DNA from: Verrucomicrobiales bacterium
GTDB taxonomy: Bacteria > Verrucomicrobiota > Verrucomicrobiia > Verrucomicrobiales > DEV007
DNA: 64,000 nucleotides
Assembly: GCA_029233965.1 (NCBI GenBank)
Contig: JARGOP010000016.1
Span: 1 to 64,000, forward strand
Direction of reading: 5' to 3'
This document shows positions 5,611 through 17,630 of the stretch, piece by piece; positions within the stretch are counted from its first letter, which is position 1, and every line of letters begins with the position of its first letter. A program made the position numbers and the translations under genes. A model generated the notes under the pieces. It saw nothing but the letters and a program-made list of their open reading frames with translations, was not told the DNA's origin and did not search any database.

Positions 5611-7019
5611 ATGGAAATTATAAATTCCGCGCATGACTTCCCTGTTTTTTCCCTCTTTTCAAAGCTCAGTCTTTTCGTGGTTTCAGCCGGAGTGGGAATG
5701 ATTGCTTACTTCCTGTTTGCCGGAACCAACACCAAGGCAGGCTATGACGGCGGCGCCGGGGCGATCATCATCCCGGCCGTGGAAAGTCATCTCCACCTTC
5801 CGATGGAGGAGGCGCTCCTCGCGAAGACCCAGTCTCCCGTTGATGTCAGCGGAGACGCTTACGGGGTTCTCTATGTCCTCCAGCTGGACGGCAAGTTCAT
5901 CCGCATTGGAAACGGAGGGACCATGATGAAGGTCTCCACTCAGTATGCGAATCTCAGTGATGACCGGACGAAGCACGAAGTCGGATTTTCCGCGATTGCA
6001 TTTCATCCGGAATTTCTCGTCAAAGAGCGTCCCGGATTCAGCAAGTTTTACGTCGTCGTGGCCGAGAAAGCGCGTTCCGCGATGCCGGACTTCATTCCTC
6101 AGTTCGGATTTGGTCCTGAGACTCATCAGGAAGTGCTCTACGAATACCAGACCGATTTCCCTACGCTTCGAACTTCAAAGGCACCCGTCGTGAAGTGATG
6201 CGCTTCAGCCAGCCGGGGCGGGAGAACAATGTCACCAGCATCACTTTCGATCCCTACGGCCATCTCTTTCTCGCCGTTGGCGACGGAGCCCACATGGAGG
6301 TCGATCATCGCAGCCCTTCGAAAAATGCGTCTTCGCTTTCGAATGCCTATGGAAAAATCCTGCCCATCGACCCCATGGGGCGCAACTCGGTGAATGGAAA
6401 ATACGGCATTCCCAGGACGAACCCCTTCCAGCTCGTCTCCGACGCGCTCCCCGAACTCTGGACCTTCGGCCTCCGTGCTCCGCACAGCCTTTCCTTTGAT
6501 CCCTTTCTCCAGAATCTTTGCATTGGAGAATCCAGTGAGAATGGCATGGAAAAGGTCAACATCAGCGAATACGGCGGCGAGCACTTCGGGTGGGACCTCC
6601 TGCGCGACAACGGCCTTTTCAGCCTTGTTTCCAACAGCCAGCTTGCCGAAGTCGTCACTGCTCTAACCTTCTCGATTGACCGTAGATCGCAGTCCATGGG
6701 AATGAACACGGGAAACGTGATCTACCGAGGCGAGAATTTTCCCTCCCTCGCCGGAAGACTCATCGTTGCGAACGAGTCCGGTGACCTCGTTGTTTCCCAG
6801 CCCGAACTGCAGGGGCAGCTTCAGCTCCTCGATCTCGGCCCCCTTTCCGGAAGACGAATCAACGCACTTCGCACCACTCCCGCGGGAGAGCTGCTCATTC
6901 TCTGCGCGGACGGCAGTATTTTCGAACTGAAGAAAACCGAGTCCACGACGGAAGGAAGCTGGAAGCGTAAGCCCCTCTACTGCCTTCGCACGATCGAGAG
7001 CACGGCGAGCCGCAGCTAA
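5611..7019 (+). pseudogene. PQQ-type sugar dehydrogenase, split by a frameshift
   Basis: Two ORFs (5611-6198 and 6195-7019) together encode one glucose/sorbosone dehydrogenase-like beta-propeller. The first half has an N-terminal hydrophobic anchor (about residues 18-40) and the early propeller blades. The second has NVTSITFDPYGHLFLAVGDGA, the family substrate/calcium-site region, and RAPHSLSFDP. Reading past the first half in the second frame gives Y-A-S-N-F-K-G-T-R-R-E-V-M-R-F, a natural continuation. Restoring one C in the CCC run at 6159-6161 joins both halves into a protein of about 470 residues. Either the gene is broken or the assembly has a homopolymer error. The 199-bp gap before it (5412-5610) shows only a short CACCGG/CCGGTG hairpin. 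Confidence 0.85.
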
Positions 7020-8383
7020 AACTCAGCGGACCCCGGCGTGCGCGGGAACGGGATCACATCCCGAATGTTGGCAACCCCGGTGATAAACATCAGGAGCCGC
7101 TCAAAACCGAGGCCGAAACCGGCATGAGGCACTGAGCCGTAGCGGCGGAGATCGACATACCAGGAATAGTCCGCCTCATCGAGGTCGTGCGCTTTCATAT
7201 TGGCACGGAGAATCTCGAGGCGTTCCTCCCGCTGGCTGCCGCCAACGATCTCGCCGATCCCCGGTACAAGCAGATCCATCGCCGCGACCGTCTTTTCATC
7301 GTCATTGATGCGCATGTAGAAGGGTTTGATCTCCTTCGGGTAATTATAAACCGTCGTGGGACACTTGAAGTGCGTCTCGGTCAGGTAGCGCTCGTGCTCA
7401 GACTGAAGGTTGTGCCCATACTCAACGGGGAACTCAAACTTTGCGCCGCTCTCCTCGAGGATCCTTACCGCCTCAGTGTAGCTGACCCGCTCAAAGGCAC
7501 GATCACGGACGGACTCGAGGCGACTGATGAGCCCCTTGTCGACAAACTGATCAAAGAAGCCGAGATCTTCGCGGCAGGATTCGAGAGCATCGGTGACAAG
7601 ATGTTTGATCATCGCCTCGGCCAGATCCATGTCCGCCATCAAATCACAGAACGCGATCTCCGGCTCTATCATCCAGAACTCCGAGGCATGGCGCGAGGTA
7701 TGGGAATTCTCAGCCCGGAAGGTCGGCCCGAAGGTGTAGATGTTCGAAAGGGCACAGGCGAAGGTCTCGCCTTCAAGCTGACCACTCACGGTGAGATAGC
7801 TCGGCTTTCCAAAGAACTCCTCATCGCCAAGGCGAATCTCCTCACCATCCATCGTGACCACGCGGAACATCTCACCGGCCCCCTCGCAATCCGAGGCGGT
7901 GATGACAGGCGTGTGCACATAGACGAAACCACGATCCTGAAAAAACTGATGAATCGCATACGCCATGCGGCTGCGCACGCGGAAAACGGCCCCGAAGAGG
8001 TTGGATCGCGGCCTGAGGTGGGCAATGGATCGGAGGAACTCCATCGAGTGCCCTTTTTTCTGGAGAGGAAAATCGCCTTCTGCGGAGCCCAGCATCGTGA
8101 CCGTGATCGCCTGCATCTCCCATTTTTGTCCCTTACCCTGCGACTCGACGACCTTACCGCGAACAGAGACCGATGCCCCGGTGGTGAGAGGAATCACCGA
8201 GTCGTGATAGCCCTCCAGCGTGGCGTCTGCGACAATCTGCAGATTGGTGAGGCAGCTTCCATCGTTTACTTCGATAAAGGAAAACGCCTTTGAGTCGCGC
8301 TTCGTTCGCACCCATCCCTCGATGAGGATTTCCGGCTCGGGAGCGTCGCTTTGAAGAACTTCACGGATAGGAGTGCGCGTCAT
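7016..8383 (-). CDS. asnS: Asparaginyl-tRNA synthetase
   Basis: A 455-residue class IIb aminoacyl-tRNA synthetase that charges tRNA-Asn. It has an N-terminal OB-fold anticodon-binding domain ([24 protein letters not shown], about residues 20-45). The catalytic core includes the motif 2-like [25 protein letters not shown] and motif 3 [15 protein letters not shown] near the C-terminus. The ORF track extends to a TTG at 8431, but the ATG at 8383 gives the family length (E. coli 466) and a normal start ([10 protein letters not shown]). It is convergent with the sugar dehydrogenase with a 4-bp overlap. It lies 48 bp after the kinase gene on the same strand. Confidence 0.96.
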
Positions 8384-8431: not shown

Positions 8432-11197
8432 TCATTCTCCGACCGGCACGAGAACAAACCGGAAACCGTAGGAGCCGCCCCGGGATCCTGTCGGCACCGG
8501 ATTTCGATAGGAGGTCCGGAGCACATTTTGATCATGAGAGTCCCAGCCGCCTCCCCGAACCACCCCGAGCGCCGAACCGCCGCCATGGTAGGAATCACTG
8601 ACCCATTCCCAGACGTTGCCGCCAAGGTCAGCCAGCCCGTTGGGCCCGGGAACAAAACTCCCCACAGGAGCCGTTGTTGAAAATCCATCGTTGTAGCCTT
8701 CGATCACATATTGACCGAAGGTCGAACTCGAAGCCAGATCGGCGTAGTTCCCGGACTGAGCCGGCGGAGGCCACTCGCTGCCCCAAGGAAAGGCATCGCC
8801 CCCATTGCGCCCCCGCTCCTCCGGTGTCGCCCCGGCGGCGGGTTCCTCGCCGACCATCAGGCTCCACTCAAGATCGGTGGGAAGGCGGTAGTAAAGATTG
8901 CTCTGAATGAGACCGGCCTGCTGCTCCCTCAAGGTCAGCCAGTTGCAGAAAGCGACGGCTTCCGAAGCCGTCACGGAAGTGACCGGATGATTCAAGGCCT
9001 GGGGAAATCCTGAGGACGGCATTGGCACGATTCCGGAGTCTGTCACAAACTCGCGAAAGTCACTCACCCGGGTTTCAAATTGCGCCACCATCAGGGAGCC
9101 GACCGGCACGAGAGGCATGCCGAGGCTGTTCGTCCACGATTCCCCGAAAATGACCGATGCATTGCGATTCAAGGTTTCAACAACAGGGATGGCTTCCGGC
9201 CCCGTAATCTCGCCCGTGTTGATCTTGTTGGCATGGCCGGGCAACTCAAAGAGCACTTCAAAAGGTCCCAGTCTGACATCAGTGACCGTGACCGGCGTCG
9301 GGTCCTCGTATCGCTGCCCGTTCACGGTGACCGTCGCGCCCGGCGGCTCAGAGTTGATGAGGAGCGAACCAAAGCGGTTGTCAGTCCGACAGCGAAACAT
9401 CTCACCGCCGTCTTCCGGGAGGATATCGACAGGCCGATAGTATTCATTTCGCCCGAGGTAGCCGGAAGCGCGGTCCTGCGCGGTCATCCAGTCACAAAAT
9501 TTCCACATCGCCTCGCGATCGAGCAGGATCGCCACCCCCTGCTTCCCGGTCCTTGGAATCTGCAGATTCGCCGCTTCGGTGAAGGTGTCGAAAAGCTGCG
9601 TCGAAACGAGTGACGACATGACATGGCCTCCATCGGCGAGCGGTTCAAAACTGACTCCGACGGAATTGACCCAGGAATTCCCCGCGACCGGTCCATAGTC
9701 GGGAAGCAGCGGCACTTCGATCAATTGAAAATCTTCGGTGACATTCACGACCTGACGAGTGTCCCGGTAGCGGGGATGTTTCAGGACCAGTTCCACCGGT
9801 CCAACCGGGAACTCCAGCGGCGAAGTCTCCGTTCGCGCGACTTCTTCGCCGTCAATCCAAACCGTCGCCCCGTTCGGCTCGCTCATGATTTTGATCTGCC
9901 CCGTCACGATACTGGCAACGAGCAGTGGCTTGTCCTCTTCCTTCGGTTCATCTCCCGGAGTGTCGACCGGACTGTCATCTTCAGGAGTCTCACTGGCGGC
10001 ATCCCCCCCCTCCGAGATCTTTTCGCCGCTGTCTCCGGGATCATGGATCACCACCTCTCCAACGCCGTCGCCTGAAACTACGGACGGATCCGTTCCTTCC
10101 CCGTTTTTGTCAGGCTCGAGGCTGGAAGTCTCGTCGTCGGGAGGGCCCGGAACCGGGTCGGTGGTCTCTTGGACTTTGTCGGGAGCAGCCACTTCTTTCC
10201 CGCCTCCGTTTGTGACGAGGAGATTGGAATTTTGATCCACAAATGACCGGGTGTCTTTCCAAACCCAATAACCTCCGTATCCTGCGGCAGCGAAAAAGGC
10301 GAGAACGAGAAAGGTCACCAGCGCACCGATGCCACTTCGTCGCTTTTTCCCGCCTCCCGGAAGATTCGAAGTGATCACTCCCCGCAGGGCGAGCGCGAAA
10401 GAATGAGCCGAATCATAGCGCTTTCCCGGATCCGGCGAACCCGCCCGGCAGATGACCCCGTTCAGGGCCCGCCATTCATCGCGGTTCACCGTGGGAGGAA
10501 TCTCGAGATTGGTCGGAAGCTCGGGAAAATCCATGCGGTCTTTTCCCGTGTGCATTTCGTACAGCACCATCGCAAGCGAGTAGAGATCGGCCGAACTTGT
10601 GCCCGGTCCTTCCGGCGGGACGTAGCCCTCCGTTCCCACATAAGTCCTTTGACCACTTGCCGCAACGAGCCCGACATCGGCGAGCTTCGGCTCTCCCTTC
10701 ACAAAAATGATATTCGAGGGCTTCACGTCGCGGTGCGTGAGTCCGGCGAGATGGAGATGCCCGAGAGCGCCCGCGAGGGACATGCCGATATTCACACAGT
10801 CACTGACTTCACGACTGGAATTGCGGCGGAGTTCCGAGGTGAGCGTTTTCGCTCGATACGTTTCCGGATCGATCTCTTCAGAGCCACCCAACTCATCATC
10901 GGCGAGCTCCATGACATAATAATAAAATCCGGCCTCATCATCACGACCGACGTGCAGCACATCGACGAGTCCGGGATGATCCTGGGAAACCTGCTCGTAG
11001 CGCTGAATTCCCTCGAACTCCCGTTCGAAAGTCTTCTCGTATTCGAAGTCCTCACGACGCACGACTTTGACAGCGCGGTACATTCCGGTCACGGAACGGG
11101 CAAGAAACACCTCACCGTAGGCTCCGCCACCAATGCGACCGAGGATTTCAAAATTGGGGATTGAGGGTTTGTCTGAGGAGTCCTGGATGCGGAAAAT
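8432..11197 (-). CDS. Membrane Ser/Thr kinase with duplicated PEGA/FGE-like sensor
   Basis: Numbering is from the GTG at 11110 (892 residues). Kinase domain 1-240: VAIK-type Lys15, HRDVKPSN (126-133), DVG in place of DFG (145-147). A membrane helix lies at 262-284, then an acidic Pro-rich linker to about 400. The exterior has PEGA 1 (about 404-470), a shortened FGE-like domain (about 478-575), PEGA 2 (about 580-645) and a full FGE-sulfatase fold (656-892, ending GNVWEWVSD...YGFRFV). The FGE lacks the paired active-site cysteines of true formylglycine-generating enzymes, so it is probably a binding domain. The P-loop GRIGGGAYGEV lies upstream of GTG 11110 in the same frame. That frame opens after a TAG at 11198-11200 with no ATG, GTG or TTG, so I extend it to the ATT at 11197. 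Confidence 0.85.
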   Translation of the reverse strand: MFRIQDSSDKPSIPNFEILGRIGGGAYGEVFLARSVTGMYRAVKVVRREDFEYEKTFEREFEGIQRYEQVSQDHPGLVDVLHVGRDDEAGFYYYVMELADDELGGSEEIDPETYRAKTLTSELRRNSSREVSDCVNIGMSLAGALGHLHLAGLTHRDVKPSNIIFVKGEPKLADVGLVAASGQRTYVGTEGYVPPEGPGTSSADLYSLAMVLYEMHTGKDRMDFPELPTNLEIPPTVNRDEWRALNGVICRAGSPDPGKRYDSAHSFALALRGVITSNLPGGGKKRRSGIGALVTFLVLAFFAAAGYGGYWVWKDTRSFVDQNSNLLVTNGGGKEVAAPDKVQETTDPVPGPPDDETSSLEPDKNGEGTDPSVVSGDGVGEVVIHDPGDSGEKISEGGDAASETPEDDSPVDTPGDEPKEEDKPLLVASIVTGQIKIMSEPNGATVWIDGEEVARTETSPLEFPVGPVELVLKHPRYRDTRQVVNVTEDFQLIEVPLLPDYGPVAGNSWVNSVGVSFEPLADGGHVMSSLVSTQLFDTFTEAANLQIPRTGKQGVAILLDREAMWKFCDWMTAQDRASGYLGRNEYYRPVDILPEDGGEMFRCRTDNRFGSLLINSEPPGATVTVNGQRYEDPTPVTVTDVRLGPFEVLFELPGHANKINTGEITGPEAIPVVETLNRNASVIFGESWTNSLGMPLVPVGSLMVAQFETRVSDFREFVTDSGIVPMPSSGFPQALNHPVTSVTASEAVAFCNWLTLREQQAGLIQSNLYYRLPTDLEWSLMVGEEPAAGATPEERGRNGGDAFPWGSEWPPPAQSGNYADLASSSTFGQYVIEGYNDGFSTTAPVGSFVPGPNGLADLGGNVWEWVSDSYHGGGSALGVVRGGGWDSHDQNVLRTSYRNPVPTGSRGGSYGFRFVLVPVGE

Positions 11198-11240
11198 CTA
11201 CCCGATTCCGCCACGTATTCCAGTCTCTTCCGCTTCCCCT

Positions 11241-12764
11241 TCAGGATTGCCCCATCGCAGGGATCCCGGCCGAACCGTCCCGGGTCAGGATCAAATCGCC
11301 TTCCCCCTGCTCCGGAAGTTCCGCGTGCAGAATGATCTCGAAAACCGTGTCTGCCGGAATCTCCCTGCCCGCCCATCCCGAGGCCTGAAGCGCTTCACCT
11401 GACTCATCGATCTCACGGACGCGGTGTCCAAATCCCCAACCTCCATAGGTGAAACGGGTCTCCACTTCGTTCGGGCAGGCGTCGGAATACATTCCCAAAT
11501 GGCGCGCTCCATAGAAAAGCTCGTGGCTTCCGTTGAATCCAACGGACCCCGGAGTCTCAGAGTTCGAGAGACAGAACCCATCCGTGGATGTGTAGACGAC
11601 TTCCCCGGTGTCAAGTCGACGGATCGAAATCCAATCAGCCCAGTCAGGGATCATTTCGAGAGCCCGGGCACGCTGGTTCACTCCGCGATAGATATCCTGT
11701 CCCCAGAGAGTGACATCATTCGAACGAAAGAGCACCAGCTTTCCATCCTCCGGCTCGTCAATCGCATCCCCCCGATGACGGCTCTGAGGAACGGCCCGTT
11801 CATGGTGACCGTTCAACCCGCGAGATTCAGCCTTCGCTGACGCAAATTCAGAGGAGGGAACCAAATCTTCATTCGGCCGCAACGCGACCGGCGATTCGTA
11901 CTCATCCTCTTCAAGCAGGTCGAGGAGATCTTCGATGCCACTGGAGAGACTCAACCCACTGCCCCTCTCGAGCGAATCTGTGACAGCACCGTCCACCAGA
12001 AGAATATCGCAGATTGACTGAAAACACTTTTCCCCACCGGCAGAGAGGGTGTCTCGAATTTGACGATCCGCCTCATCGGTCAACACCTGCCAGTCAGACG
12101 GGGACTCACTCAACATTCTCTGGACATCGAGCAGCTTCCCGCGAATCCGGTCGCGTTCAGCCCTGATGCTGTCGGCATTGATGCAGTAGGAATCCTCGAG
12201 CGCACTGAGTTCCTGACTGACCGGACGCATCCGGTCGCGGGCCCCCTCAAGTCGCGAGAGTTGGGATTCCGCCATTTCCAAACAAGCCTTGATCGCCTCC
12301 GGTCGCCCCGGAGCCTCAGCGGCAATGGCCGTCAATCTCGACTTCACAAGAGCGAGCCTTGAATAATCCGTCCCGATGCGCTGACGAATCTCCCGTGCCT
12401 CCTCAGCAAGAAAGGAAAGCCCCAACTTTATCCGAACCGGCCGGGGAGTATCGGAATGCTGAAGCTCTGACCTCAATTCGGCCTGCCTCACGAGCCGCTC
12501 CTGTTCCTGTCGTTCGAAAAGGACCAGTTTTTCATGCCGCCAACGAAGTTCTTCACTCTCCGCAGGGACGGTTTCGACCTCCGCAAGATTCGCCCGCTTC
12601 ACCGAGAAGCGCCCGATAAGAAAGGTGACAAAAGCAACGAGACCGACCGCGATCCACCCCCCGGCGGGAGTGGACTCGATCCAGATACGAAGCGTCTCCC
12701 CGATTTCCGGATTCAGGGCCGGAATCTGATCAAGAAGCGCAATCACTATGGCAGTAGGATGCAT
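11241..12764 (-). CDS. Membrane-anchored coiled-coil protein, unknown function
   Basis: A 507-residue protein with one clear transmembrane segment (about residues 35-52, GWIAVGLVAFVTFLIGRF). A long Glu/Arg-rich helical region follows (about 60-260, WRHEKLVLFERQEQERLVRQ and on) that reads as coiled coil. The C-terminal part (about 345-500) is a separate globular domain rich in Trp and Gly (NDVTLWGQDIYRGVNQRARALEMIPDWADWISIRR, YGGWGFGHRV) that I do not recognise. It lies immediately upstream of the kinase gene on the same strand, with about 43 bp between its stop and the kinase frame, so a shared signalling or scaffold role is plausible but inferred. Confidence 0.75.
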   Translation of the reverse strand: MHPTAIVIALLDQIPALNPEIGETLRIWIESTPAGGWIAVGLVAFVTFLIGRFSVKRANLAEVETVPAESEELRWRHEKLVLFERQEQERLVRQAELRSELQHSDTPRPVRIKLGLSFLAEEAREIRQRIGTDYSRLALVKSRLTAIAAEAPGRPEAIKACLEMAESQLSRLEGARDRMRPVSQELSALEDSYCINADSIRAERDRIRGKLLDVQRMLSESPSDWQVLTDEADRQIRDTLSAGGEKCFQSICDILLVDGAVTDSLERGSGLSLSSGIEDLLDLLEEDEYESPVALRPNEDLVPSSEFASAKAESRGLNGHHERAVPQSRHRGDAIDEPEDGKLVLFRSNDVTLWGQDIYRGVNQRARALEMIPDWADWISIRRLDTGEVVYTSTDGFCLSNSETPGSVGFNGSHELFYGARHLGMYSDACPNEVETRFTYGGWGFGHRVREIDESGEALQASGWAGREIPADTVFEIILHAELPEQGEGDLILTRDGSAGIPAMGQS

Positions 12765-14162: not shown

Positions 14163-17100
14163 TCAACGGTTCGCGGCGGCTTCCTCCTGCTTTTCCGCGA
14201 GAAGCACCCGGAACTCTTCGAGACGGTCGGGAAACCCTGACTTAACGGCGAGATTGTTTTTCTCCTCCGGGTCGTTCCCTAAGTGATAGAGCTCTTCTCC
14301 ATCAGGCCACAGCGCGTAACGCCAGCTCTGATTGCGAAGAGCGTAGCCGAGTTTCACGCCGCGAGTCACGACGCTGTAGGCATACTTCTTTTTCCCGGGG
14401 CGCTCGGGATGTCCCAACAGAGGCCGAAGCGAGCTGCCCTGCAAGTGATGTGGCGGAGTCAGCCCCGTAAGATCAGCGAGGGTCGGATAAATGTCGATCA
14501 ACTCCACCATCGCTTCGGATTCGGTTCCGCCCTCGGTCACTCCCGGAGCACGAACGAGAAAAGGAACCTTTGCCCCGATATCGAAGAGCGTCACTTTCCC
14601 CCAGAGAAAATGATCTCCAAGGTGGTAACCGTGGTCTGAGGTGAAAACAATGATCGTGTCGTCCCAGTGTCCGCTCTCTTTCAGAGCATCGAAAACAAGC
14701 TTCAACCGGGCATCGAGGAAGGACACGCAGGCATGATAGGCCTGCATGTACTCACGACGAAGGGCGTCATTTTCGACACCCAACTCAAAACCAAATTCAC
14801 GATATCTTCCGGATACGGCCATTTTCGGGAGCGTCTCCCAGAGGTTGGGCCGGTCTGGATCGTATTCGATTTCATCAAGCGGGTAGAGATCAAAATATTT
14901 GTCAGGCGCGAGAAACGGCACGTGGGGTTTTTGAATACCGCAGGCAATGAAAAAGGGCTTGTCACCGGAGACATCGTCTTTCAACCACCTCGAAACAGTC
15001 CGCGCATTTTTTCCGTCCTTGTGTTGTCCGTCAGTCAGGCCACTCCGCCCGTAGCCCGGAGGCGTCTGCGCATCGAGCTTCGACTTCGCTCCTTTTTCGA
15101 TCTCTTTCCACAATTTCCGATTGGGCCCCTCTTCGATTGAACCATGCTCCGCTTCGAATTTCTCACGGGCCGCCGTCACCACAGGCAACTCATCATTTTC
15201 AAAACGGAGAAACTCATCCCAGGCAACCTCCCCGTGTTCATGACGAGGTGAATGAAAGATCTTCCCAACGCTTCCGGTCCAGTATCCATTTTCCTTGAAA
15301 AACTGCGGCATCGAGACCGTGCCGGGGCGGGTTTCCCGAATGTCGGCCTTGTTGTCAAGGACGCCAGTGGACTCAGGATAGAGCCCATTCAGAAAAGAGG
15401 CTCGCGACGGCCCGCAAACCGGATACTGACAAAACGCCCGTTTGAAGGTCATCGCCTCCTCCGCAAATCCTGCCAGTGTCGGGGTCTGAATCTGAGCATA
15501 GCCTGAAGTCGAAACGTGTGTGTTGAGATCGTCACACACGATGAGAAGAACGTTCTTCTTATTCCCGCCTCCCTGTTTCCGAACTTCCTTTGCCGCCTCC
15601 GGCTTCGCGGAACGAAGAAAAAGACGGACGTCGTCGACAAAAAAACGACCACTGAACTCTTTTCCGGGAAAAAAGCGGAGCGTGACCTCTTCGAAACCAT
15701 CGCTCTTGAAGCGACTTGAAAACTCAAGCCACTCCCCGGTGCGACTTGCCTTCATCACGATCTGAGCACTCTCATCAAAGCGGTCAAGGGTGTCGAAAAC
15801 GACCAGCCCCGAGGAGCCCGGCTCGAAGAAAATTTTGAAGGACGCCTCGTATTCTTCTCCGGCTTTGATCGGAATGACCTGCCTCACAACATTGGACTGC
15901 TCGACTCTGCTGCGAAATTCCAAAGAATTTTTTCCTTCCGCTTTGTGCTCCTGACTCACTGCGTAGACATCACTCCCAAATCGCCAGCCCGATTTCCGCG
16001 GATCCTCCTCAAAGGATCCCCCTTTCACCAGATTCCCTCCGGACACGCCACTTTCGCTGGAAGCCCCTTTTCCGCGAGTCACCGGCGGGACGTAGCCGGA
16101 GGTCGAGGTGGTATTTCCGGCACCTTTCTCCCATCGAAACGTTTCCCCCTCGGCAACGAGATCTTTGTTGCTGTTGAGCTTCTCTTCGTGATCCGCAAAG
16201 GTCTCCGGGGCGAGCTTTCGCATCGCGTCTATTTGCGCCGCATACTCAGGTCGGCCCGCGAGATTTGTCCATTCCTCGGGATCTTTCTGCAGGTCATACA
16301 ATTCCTCCCCGTCTTCACCGTAACGGATGTAGCGCCAGTCGCGGTTGATGATCGCAAACTCGCCCGGCTCCGTATAGGGCAGGTAAACATTCCGGTCTTC
16401 TGCCGCCGCCGGATCCGCGAGCGTCGCGACCAGTGACTCCCCTTCCAGAGCTTGCGCCGGCCCGGGGAGGTCACACATCTCAACAAAGGTGGGATACATG
16501 TCGATGAGGCTGACCGTCACATCGGTCTTCGCCCCCTCGGCCACGCCGGGCCCCGCCCAGATGAAAGGCACATTCGAGGTGCGCTCCCAGAGGGTGTGTT
16601 TGCCCCAGTTCCCCTTCTGCCCGTGATGATACCCGTGATCACTCCAGAACACGACGATGGTGTTGTCGGCGTAGGGGCTGGCTTCGAGAGCGTCGAGGAC
16701 CCGCCCCATCATCGCATCCGCGTAACTGATACAGGCGAGATACCCATGGATGGCATCAGCGACGGAATCGAGCTCCTGCAATCCACGATGATGAAGATTC
16801 CTCCGGTTGACCATCTTCTTTCTGATCTTGTCAGGCAGATCATCGAGCTCGTCTTCATTGGATTCAGGCAGCGTGATCTTTTCCGGATCGTAAAGATCGA
16901 AGTATTTCTGCGGGCAGTAGTTCGGGTAATGCGGCGCGTAGATCCCGGTCGCGAGAAAGAACGGTTTGTCGTGCTGTTTCTGAAGCTGCTCGACAGCCCA
17001 GTTGATCCGGATCGTGTCGGCCATCTCCTCCTCTTTCCCGTCAGGGATCGCCCCCCACTCGAGAAAAAGTCCGCCCTTCAGCTGTTTTCCAACATTGTAA

Positions 17101-17630
17101 ATGCTTGCCGGAAAGGGATCCGGAAACGGCGTTTCCGAACTCCACGAATCGAGCGGCCAGCCGTTTTCTTTTTGCGCCCGGGTGCGAAGAAAAAATTCCG
17201 TCCAGCCGCGCTGGTCAATGGCTCCGGCAGGATGATGAAACAGCTTTCCCGCTCCCAGAGTGGCATAACCCGCTTTGTCGAAACTCATTTGCAACGCCTC
17301 AATCCCGGGAGAGCTGACAAAATAATTCGCGGTGTTGTAGCAACCGGTCGTCGAAGCAAACTGCCCGGAAAAGATCGCCGCCCTTGATGGAGCGCAAAAG
17401 ACACCTGCGGTGTGGGCATTGGTGAAATTGACGCCACGAGCCGCGAGCCGGTCGAGATTCGGAGTAATTGCCTGCGGGCGGACCACCGGTGCCGTCCCGT
17501 CGAGGCAACCGATCCAGTCATTCATGTCATCGACCGCGAGGAAGAGGACGTTGGGTTTCGAGGTCTCAGCACCTTGAGAAGGGATCAGCAGAAGAGCCGC
17601 GAGAAAAGGGATCAGAACAAGCGATTTCAT
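14163..17630 (-). CDS. Two-sulfatase fusion with central carbohydrate-binding-like domain
   Basis: A 1155-residue exported protein (signal peptide [22 protein letters not shown]). Domain 1 (about 25-500) is an iduronate-2-sulfatase-like S1 sulfatase: [13 protein letters not shown] metal site and the formylglycine motif C79-A-P-S-R. The middle (about 550-690) looks like a CenC/CBM4_9-type beta-sandwich ([12 protein letters not shown]...[12 protein letters not shown]). Domain 2 (about 700-1150) is a second full sulfatase: [13 protein letters not shown] and C-G-P-S-R at about residue 739, plus [11 protein letters not shown]. Both catalytic Cys are present, so both domains should be active after maturation. 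Single sulfatases are about 450-550 residues, so this is a fusion. It is followed at 11 bp by the GH71/99-like gene. No sulfatase-maturing enzyme lies in the window. Confidence 0.93.

Follow-up and report, generated by a model that had tools for sequence, protein, structure and literature searches.

The window analyzed here, i.e., the whole 64,000-nucleotide stretch of DNA from a Verrucomicrobiales bacterium, carries on its minus strand a large open reading frame which extends from stop to stop between positions 11197 and 8432, immediately preceded by a TAG codon (11200-11198), and reads IFRIQDSSDKPSIPNFEILGRIGGGAYGEVFLARS. Its translation contains the P-loop, HRD and D-x-G motifs of bacterial Ser/Thr kinases (GGGAYGEV, HRDVKPSN and DVG, respectively). 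When started at the ATC codon 11188-11186, the protein exhibits in Pfam searches a Pkinase domain followed by PEGA and FGE-sulfatase domains, the match to PF00069 (E 2.9e-24) beginning at residue 14. In domain content and catalytic motifs, it is thus similar to bacterial Ser/Thr kinases with PEGA and FGE-sulfatase domains, from which it differs only by its start codon. The features of the locus are collected in Table 1.

Table 1. Features of the kinase locus, with the basis of each assignment.
Feature	Position	Strand	Basis
Ser/Thr protein kinase gene, 918 aa	8432..11188	-	Pfam matches; coding signature sets in exactly at ATC 11188-11186
AUC start codon and predicted transcription start (A = +1)	11186..11188	-	ATC, ATT or ATA at the homologous codon in 38 species
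GTG within the P-loop, not a start codon	11108..11110	-	GTG not conserved in orthologs; a start there would delete the glycine-rich loop
Predicted -10 element TAGATT, 6 nt before the start codon	11195..11200	-	contains the TAG and ATT of the original prediction
Conserved TCG just upstream of the -10 element	11203..11205	-	35 sequences, aligned on the -10 element, give 1.2-1.5 bits
-35-like element TGGAAT (family consensus TGGAAA), spacer 16	11217..11222	-	conserved TGGnAA block, 16-17 nt before the -10 element
Upstream gene, 507 aa, ending 52 nt before AUC	11241..12764	-	open reading frame; homologs precede the kinase in most g1 loci
asnS, asparagine--tRNA ligase, downstream of the kinase	7016..8383	-	NCBIfam PRK03932 / TIGR00457; same order in most g1 loci

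The first ATG, GTG or TTG codon of the kinase frame is GTG 11110-11108, which lies inside the P-loop GRIGGGAYGEV. This confirms the coordinates and the codon list of the original prediction, according to which the P-loop is encoded upstream of the only standard start codon. That translation must begin before this GTG has also been borne out, as initiation there would remove the glycine loop and as the P-loop valine codon varies among orthologs (GTC 18, GTG 12, GTA 5, GTT 3), most of them having GTC, GTA or GTT. Since PF00069 begins at residue 14 of the ATC-started protein, no start downstream of ATC 11188-11186 is reasonable.

Both neighboring genes have the same orientation as the kinase. The upstream one has no match in Pfam or NCBIfam. 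The kinase and asnS perhaps form one operon, and we know of no functional link between them.

Onset of coding and start codon in related species

A related kinase was found in 37 of 37 genomes in the first search, and a close one in 66 of 75 genomes in a search of the family; most of the relatives which bear a title are metagenome bins. With the start region taken from the best kinase match of each genome, the homologous start codon is ATC in 34 species, ATT in two and ATA in two, while ATG is never found in place. These 38 species with an AUH codon (AUC, AUU or AUA) represent four genera (g1, g15, g16 and g18) of the window's family, and the position of the codon is constant, usually 19 codons ahead of the first P-loop glycine. 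The comparison with close relatives called for by the original prediction has thus shown this arrangement to be common to 38 species. Between -60 nt and the P-loop, 26 of the 38 orthologs, including the window, have no unblocked in-frame ATG, GTG or TTG. The 12 others have an incidental one, in most cases not common to sister species, and in a few orthologs an equally incidental TTG or GTG lies in frame 3-9 nt upstream of AUH. Relatives whose genomes were assembled independently likewise offer no usable standard start at the same place.

Maximum-likelihood analysis of the kinase domain (77 rows, with one AUH sequence excluded for its short length) groups the AUH kinases in a clade of 42 rows (support 100/98), 37 of which have an AUH start. 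The rest of this clade has GTG in two rows (G004, g17), ATG in two (G018, g23) and Ns in the region in one (G044). Natural replacements occur at or near the AUH point, with GTG in G004 and G072 and ATG in G018 and G082, and ATG, GTG or TTG is available in most other genera of the family as well as in outgroups at the order level. At six loci of outgroup genera (L067, L071, L074, L188, L194 and L196), the kinase overlaps the 3' end of another upstream gene, with a TTG start within the overlap. The arrangement of the AUC clade, with what appears to be its own promoter, is unlike that of these overlapping loci.

Among close relatives, the substitution pattern changes at the AUH codon. The 12 codons before it accumulate 0.39, 0.40 and 0.42 substitutions at codon positions 1, 2 and 3, the AUH codon itself 0, 0 and 0.10, the eight codons after it 0.12, 0.09 and 0.29, and those further on 0.035, 0.031 and 0.42; the zero change at positions 1 and 2 of AUH is drawn from 29 pairwise comparisons between related genomes. 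In addition, 23 in-frame stops, distributed over 21 of the 38 rows, precede AUH, and none occurs from AUH up to the P-loop. With flat substitutions and stops upstream and a three-base rhythm behind, the boundary between noncoding and coding sequence can be placed at the AUH codon. The locus therefore shows what is expected of a natural AUH start, namely a conserved protein without possible standard start and an AUH codon conserved at the coding boundary. Collectively, these data strongly support that translation of the kinase begins at AUC 11188-11186, the predicted N-terminal peptide being (M)QDSSDKPSIPNFEILGR. The rare ATT or ATC start which the original prediction envisaged, by reference to infC, thus stands as regards its nature, and its codon is ATC 11188-11186; the ATT next to the TAG forms part of the putative -10 box TAGATT.

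The choice among AUH codons also appears constrained. ATC occupies the start position in 34 of 38 rows, compared with 61% of the Ile codons in the next 200 codons (nominal P 1e-4, which is indicative only, simple P values being optimistic when rows are related to each other). The third base of AUH has changed to T or A; G is never found in place, though AUG is one step off. Elsewhere in prokaryotes, a drift of GUG and UUG starts toward AUG is far more frequent than a drift away from AUG (PMC5622118). The third-base pattern suggests, without proving it, selection against AUG.

A promoter adjacent to the start codon

The sequence directly in front of the kinase resembles a sigma-70 promoter (TGGAAT, 16 nt, TAGATT, 6 nt, ATC). 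In 31 of the 38 species, a TAnnnT motif ends 5 or 6 nt before AUH, while shuffling predicts ~0.65 per position, i.e., ~1.3 in total. In three g15 orthologs no TAnnnT stands at the proper distance, and G043, G007 and G070 have a longer gap to AUH, of 10-12 nt; this implies a short leader in some species and hence that strict leaderlessness would not be universal. Shine-Dalgarno-like 4-mers are rarer than expected by chance (one of 38 orthologs versus 6.5 by shuffling). The TCG which precedes the -10 box is conserved as strongly as the -35 block and may be the site of a special sigma factor or regulator. An ECF-type promoter was considered and rejected: GGAAA..CGTT is similar, but the spacing is, in our judgment, ~3 nt too short.

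As the -10 box lies 5-6 nt before AUH, with a -35 element and no Shine-Dalgarno sequence, the transcript is predicted to be both leaderless and non-AUG. The main transcript would start at the A of AUC, giving an mRNA with 5'-AUC, and the usual fMet initiator tRNA would decode this codon. The layout typical of leaderless genes, with TANNNT 5-7 nt ahead of the start codon, has been described in several studies (PMC3160421), including in Deinococcus (PMC12340547) and mycobacteria (PMC4633059). The kinase genes are similar to these in the position and sequence of the -10 element (~6 nt ahead of the start codon) and in the missing Shine-Dalgarno sequence. They differ in that known leaderless genes have AUG or GUG at the 5' end, whereas the kinase genes start with AUC, AUU or AUA. 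In Mycobacterium smegmatis, leaderless translation proceeds from AUG and GUG only, and AUC, a presumed negative control, gave weak initiation even with a Shine-Dalgarno sequence (PMC4633059); in E. coli, leaderless initiation requires AUG (PMC4611024). Our literature search retrieved no leaderless AUC start and no relevant non-AUG starts in Verrucomicrobia. Under the AUG/GUG rule for leaderless mRNAs, either the window's family departs from this rule or the kinase transcript is leadered, and we clearly favor the departure from the rule.

Alternative explanations

Taken as a whole, the arrangement is probably best explained by an AUC start on a leaderless mRNA behind an abutting promoter, with low, IF3-dependent synthesis of the kinase. 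The most serious alternative, though an unlikely one, retains the AUC start and places it on a leadered transcript, produced by read-through of the upstream gene or by an additional promoter, with coupling or re-initiation 52 nt past the upstream stop and a secondary role for the abutting promoter. The co-orientation of the upstream gene and its conservation in place in most g1 loci are consistent with such a transcript, as is the lack of precedent for leaderless AUC initiation in the literature searched. A Shine-Dalgarno sequence is missing, however (1/38, below chance), and it is the -35/-10 pair which is conserved, with a position fixed relative to the start codon. Furthermore, g16 orthologs retain AUH though the upstream gene was not detected at two of their loci (L055 and L057). 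These observations argue for the abutting promoter as the source of the main transcript and for a leaderless 5' end, which we infer from sequence features.

The remaining readings dispense with AUC 11188-11186 as the start. The window has further in-frame AUH codons, so that translation could begin at the ATT or ATC of IPNFE or at ATT 11197-11195; we regard this as improbable, since the -10 box ends with the latter, which is not conserved, the codons from AUC to IPNFE evolve as coding, and a 5-codon insertion in G042 and G002 preserves the frame. Moreover, the Ile codon of IPNFE (ATT 18, ATC 13, ATA 6, GTT 1) varies as internal codons usually do. Ribosomal frameshifting from a standard upstream start, which had been put forward in the original prediction, could have relied on a GTG at 11214 that opens an out-of-frame ORF running past AUC. 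This now appears very improbable: this GTG stands in frame +1 in the window's genome, its homolog in a near relative (G006) is shifted to frame +2 by an indel, the region before ATC is noncoding by its substitution pattern, and no canonical slippery heptamer was seen by eye at the crossing. A conserved upstream start with a slip site and a fixed frame, as in programmed frameshifting, was thus not found. Lastly, the draft state of the window's genome (151 contigs) could evoke a sequencing or assembly error, as also suggested earlier, or a decayed gene. An error is excluded by the same arrangement in 38 species, the 918-aa frame is intact, its catalytic motifs are conserved, and the sequence after the start is under strong purifying selection; we consider either hardly credible.

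IF3, infC and the significance of the AUC start

The closest parallel to the kinase start is infC, which starts with AUU, AUC or AUA and is autoregulated by IF3 discrimination. In the window's genus, infC reads GGAGG-N9-ATC-GCT-AAG (at loci including L164, L163 and L170), and in two other families of the order it starts with ATA-GCC-AAG. As the ATC of infC stands behind GGAGG and the next ATG, five codons later, is too far from the Shine-Dalgarno sequence, AUC starts are very likely used in genomes of this genus, in this case with a Shine-Dalgarno sequence. Like infC, the kinase has kept AUH instead of AUG, and the first codons ATC-GCN-AAG of infC recur in many kinase orthologs, which begin with ATC-GCC-AAG or ATC-GCC-AGG. 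Where infC has GGAGG, 8-9 nt before its start, the kinase carries a promoter box instead and lacks a Shine-Dalgarno sequence; nor is it a translation factor. Another gene with an AUU start is pcnB; as in the kinase, AUH is used outside initiation factors, although the proteins differ. To our knowledge, E. coli pcnB has not been described as leaderless.

IF3 discriminates against AUU, AUC and AUA and antagonizes leaderless mRNAs (PMC4611024). With both leaderless initiation and AUH codons opposed by IF3, output of the kinase would rise when IF3 is scarce, in parallel with infC. The conservation of AUC behind the promoter across several genera, with AUG one base away, suggests selection for a weak, IF3-sensitive start, and the idea contained in the original prediction that kinase synthesis is sensitive to initiation fidelity is plausible. 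Judging from the start codon, we infer low synthesis and IF3 dependence; that the kinase is actually held low and rises when IF3 becomes limiting is possible, if somewhat doubtful. It is more tentatively that we propose that, with a 5'-terminal AUC on a leaderless mRNA, the kinase may report on free IF3 or on 70S-type initiation, within a small IF3-controlled set that would include infC.

Very few genes are known to have a conserved AUH start, and AUG or GUG is considered necessary for leaderless translation, so that a leaderless AUC start is a combination hardly workable under the current rules of bacterial translation. The kinase thus offers a natural sequence for testing the start-codon rule of leaderless mRNAs. 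There is also a consequence for annotation: gene callers limited to ATG, GTG and TTG would cut the P-loop off the kinase or misplace its start throughout the family, and on infC they would pick the ATG five codons later.

Within the window's genome, the combination of promoter and ATC has 45 matches, and inspection of the 40 outside the window yielded no convincing second gene. A wider class of ATC-leaderless genes was rejected; the matches L269 and L296 fall within other genes or are antisense to them. TAnnnT upstream of ATC shows no clear peak in 849 kb, while for ATG there is a modest peak at 6 nt. A stricter version of the kinase promoter pattern, applied to six genomes, returned the kinase loci and scattered matches.

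A dedicated AUC initiator tRNA with anticodon GAU was also considered. With the first anticodon base left free, the sole initiator-like match in the window's genome has CAU; no initiator tRNA with a different anticodon was found, and the idea of a dedicated tRNA was discarded. The initiator tRNA in question (L211:98-172, minus strand, contig C12) has A29:U41 in its anticodon stem (UCAGG-CUCAUAA-CCUGA), i.e., AU/GC/GC instead of three G-C pairs. This variant also occurs in mycoplasmas with a preference for non-AUG starts. In the family and phylum searches, A29:U41 occurs in nearly every initiator tRNA among the matches listed; it does not track AUC and was rejected as the cause of the AUC start.

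Two minor observations concern other reading frames. Near the kinase with its FGE-sulfatase-like domain, a single 1155-aa frame (14163-17630, minus strand) seemingly encodes two tandem sulfatases, with CAPSR and CGPSR motifs. Elsewhere, the frame L238:8995-9762 (plus strand) resembles a di-heme cytochrome c peroxidase (..HIAQFWDGR..) whose N-terminal part is missing and which is possibly broken or frameshifted.
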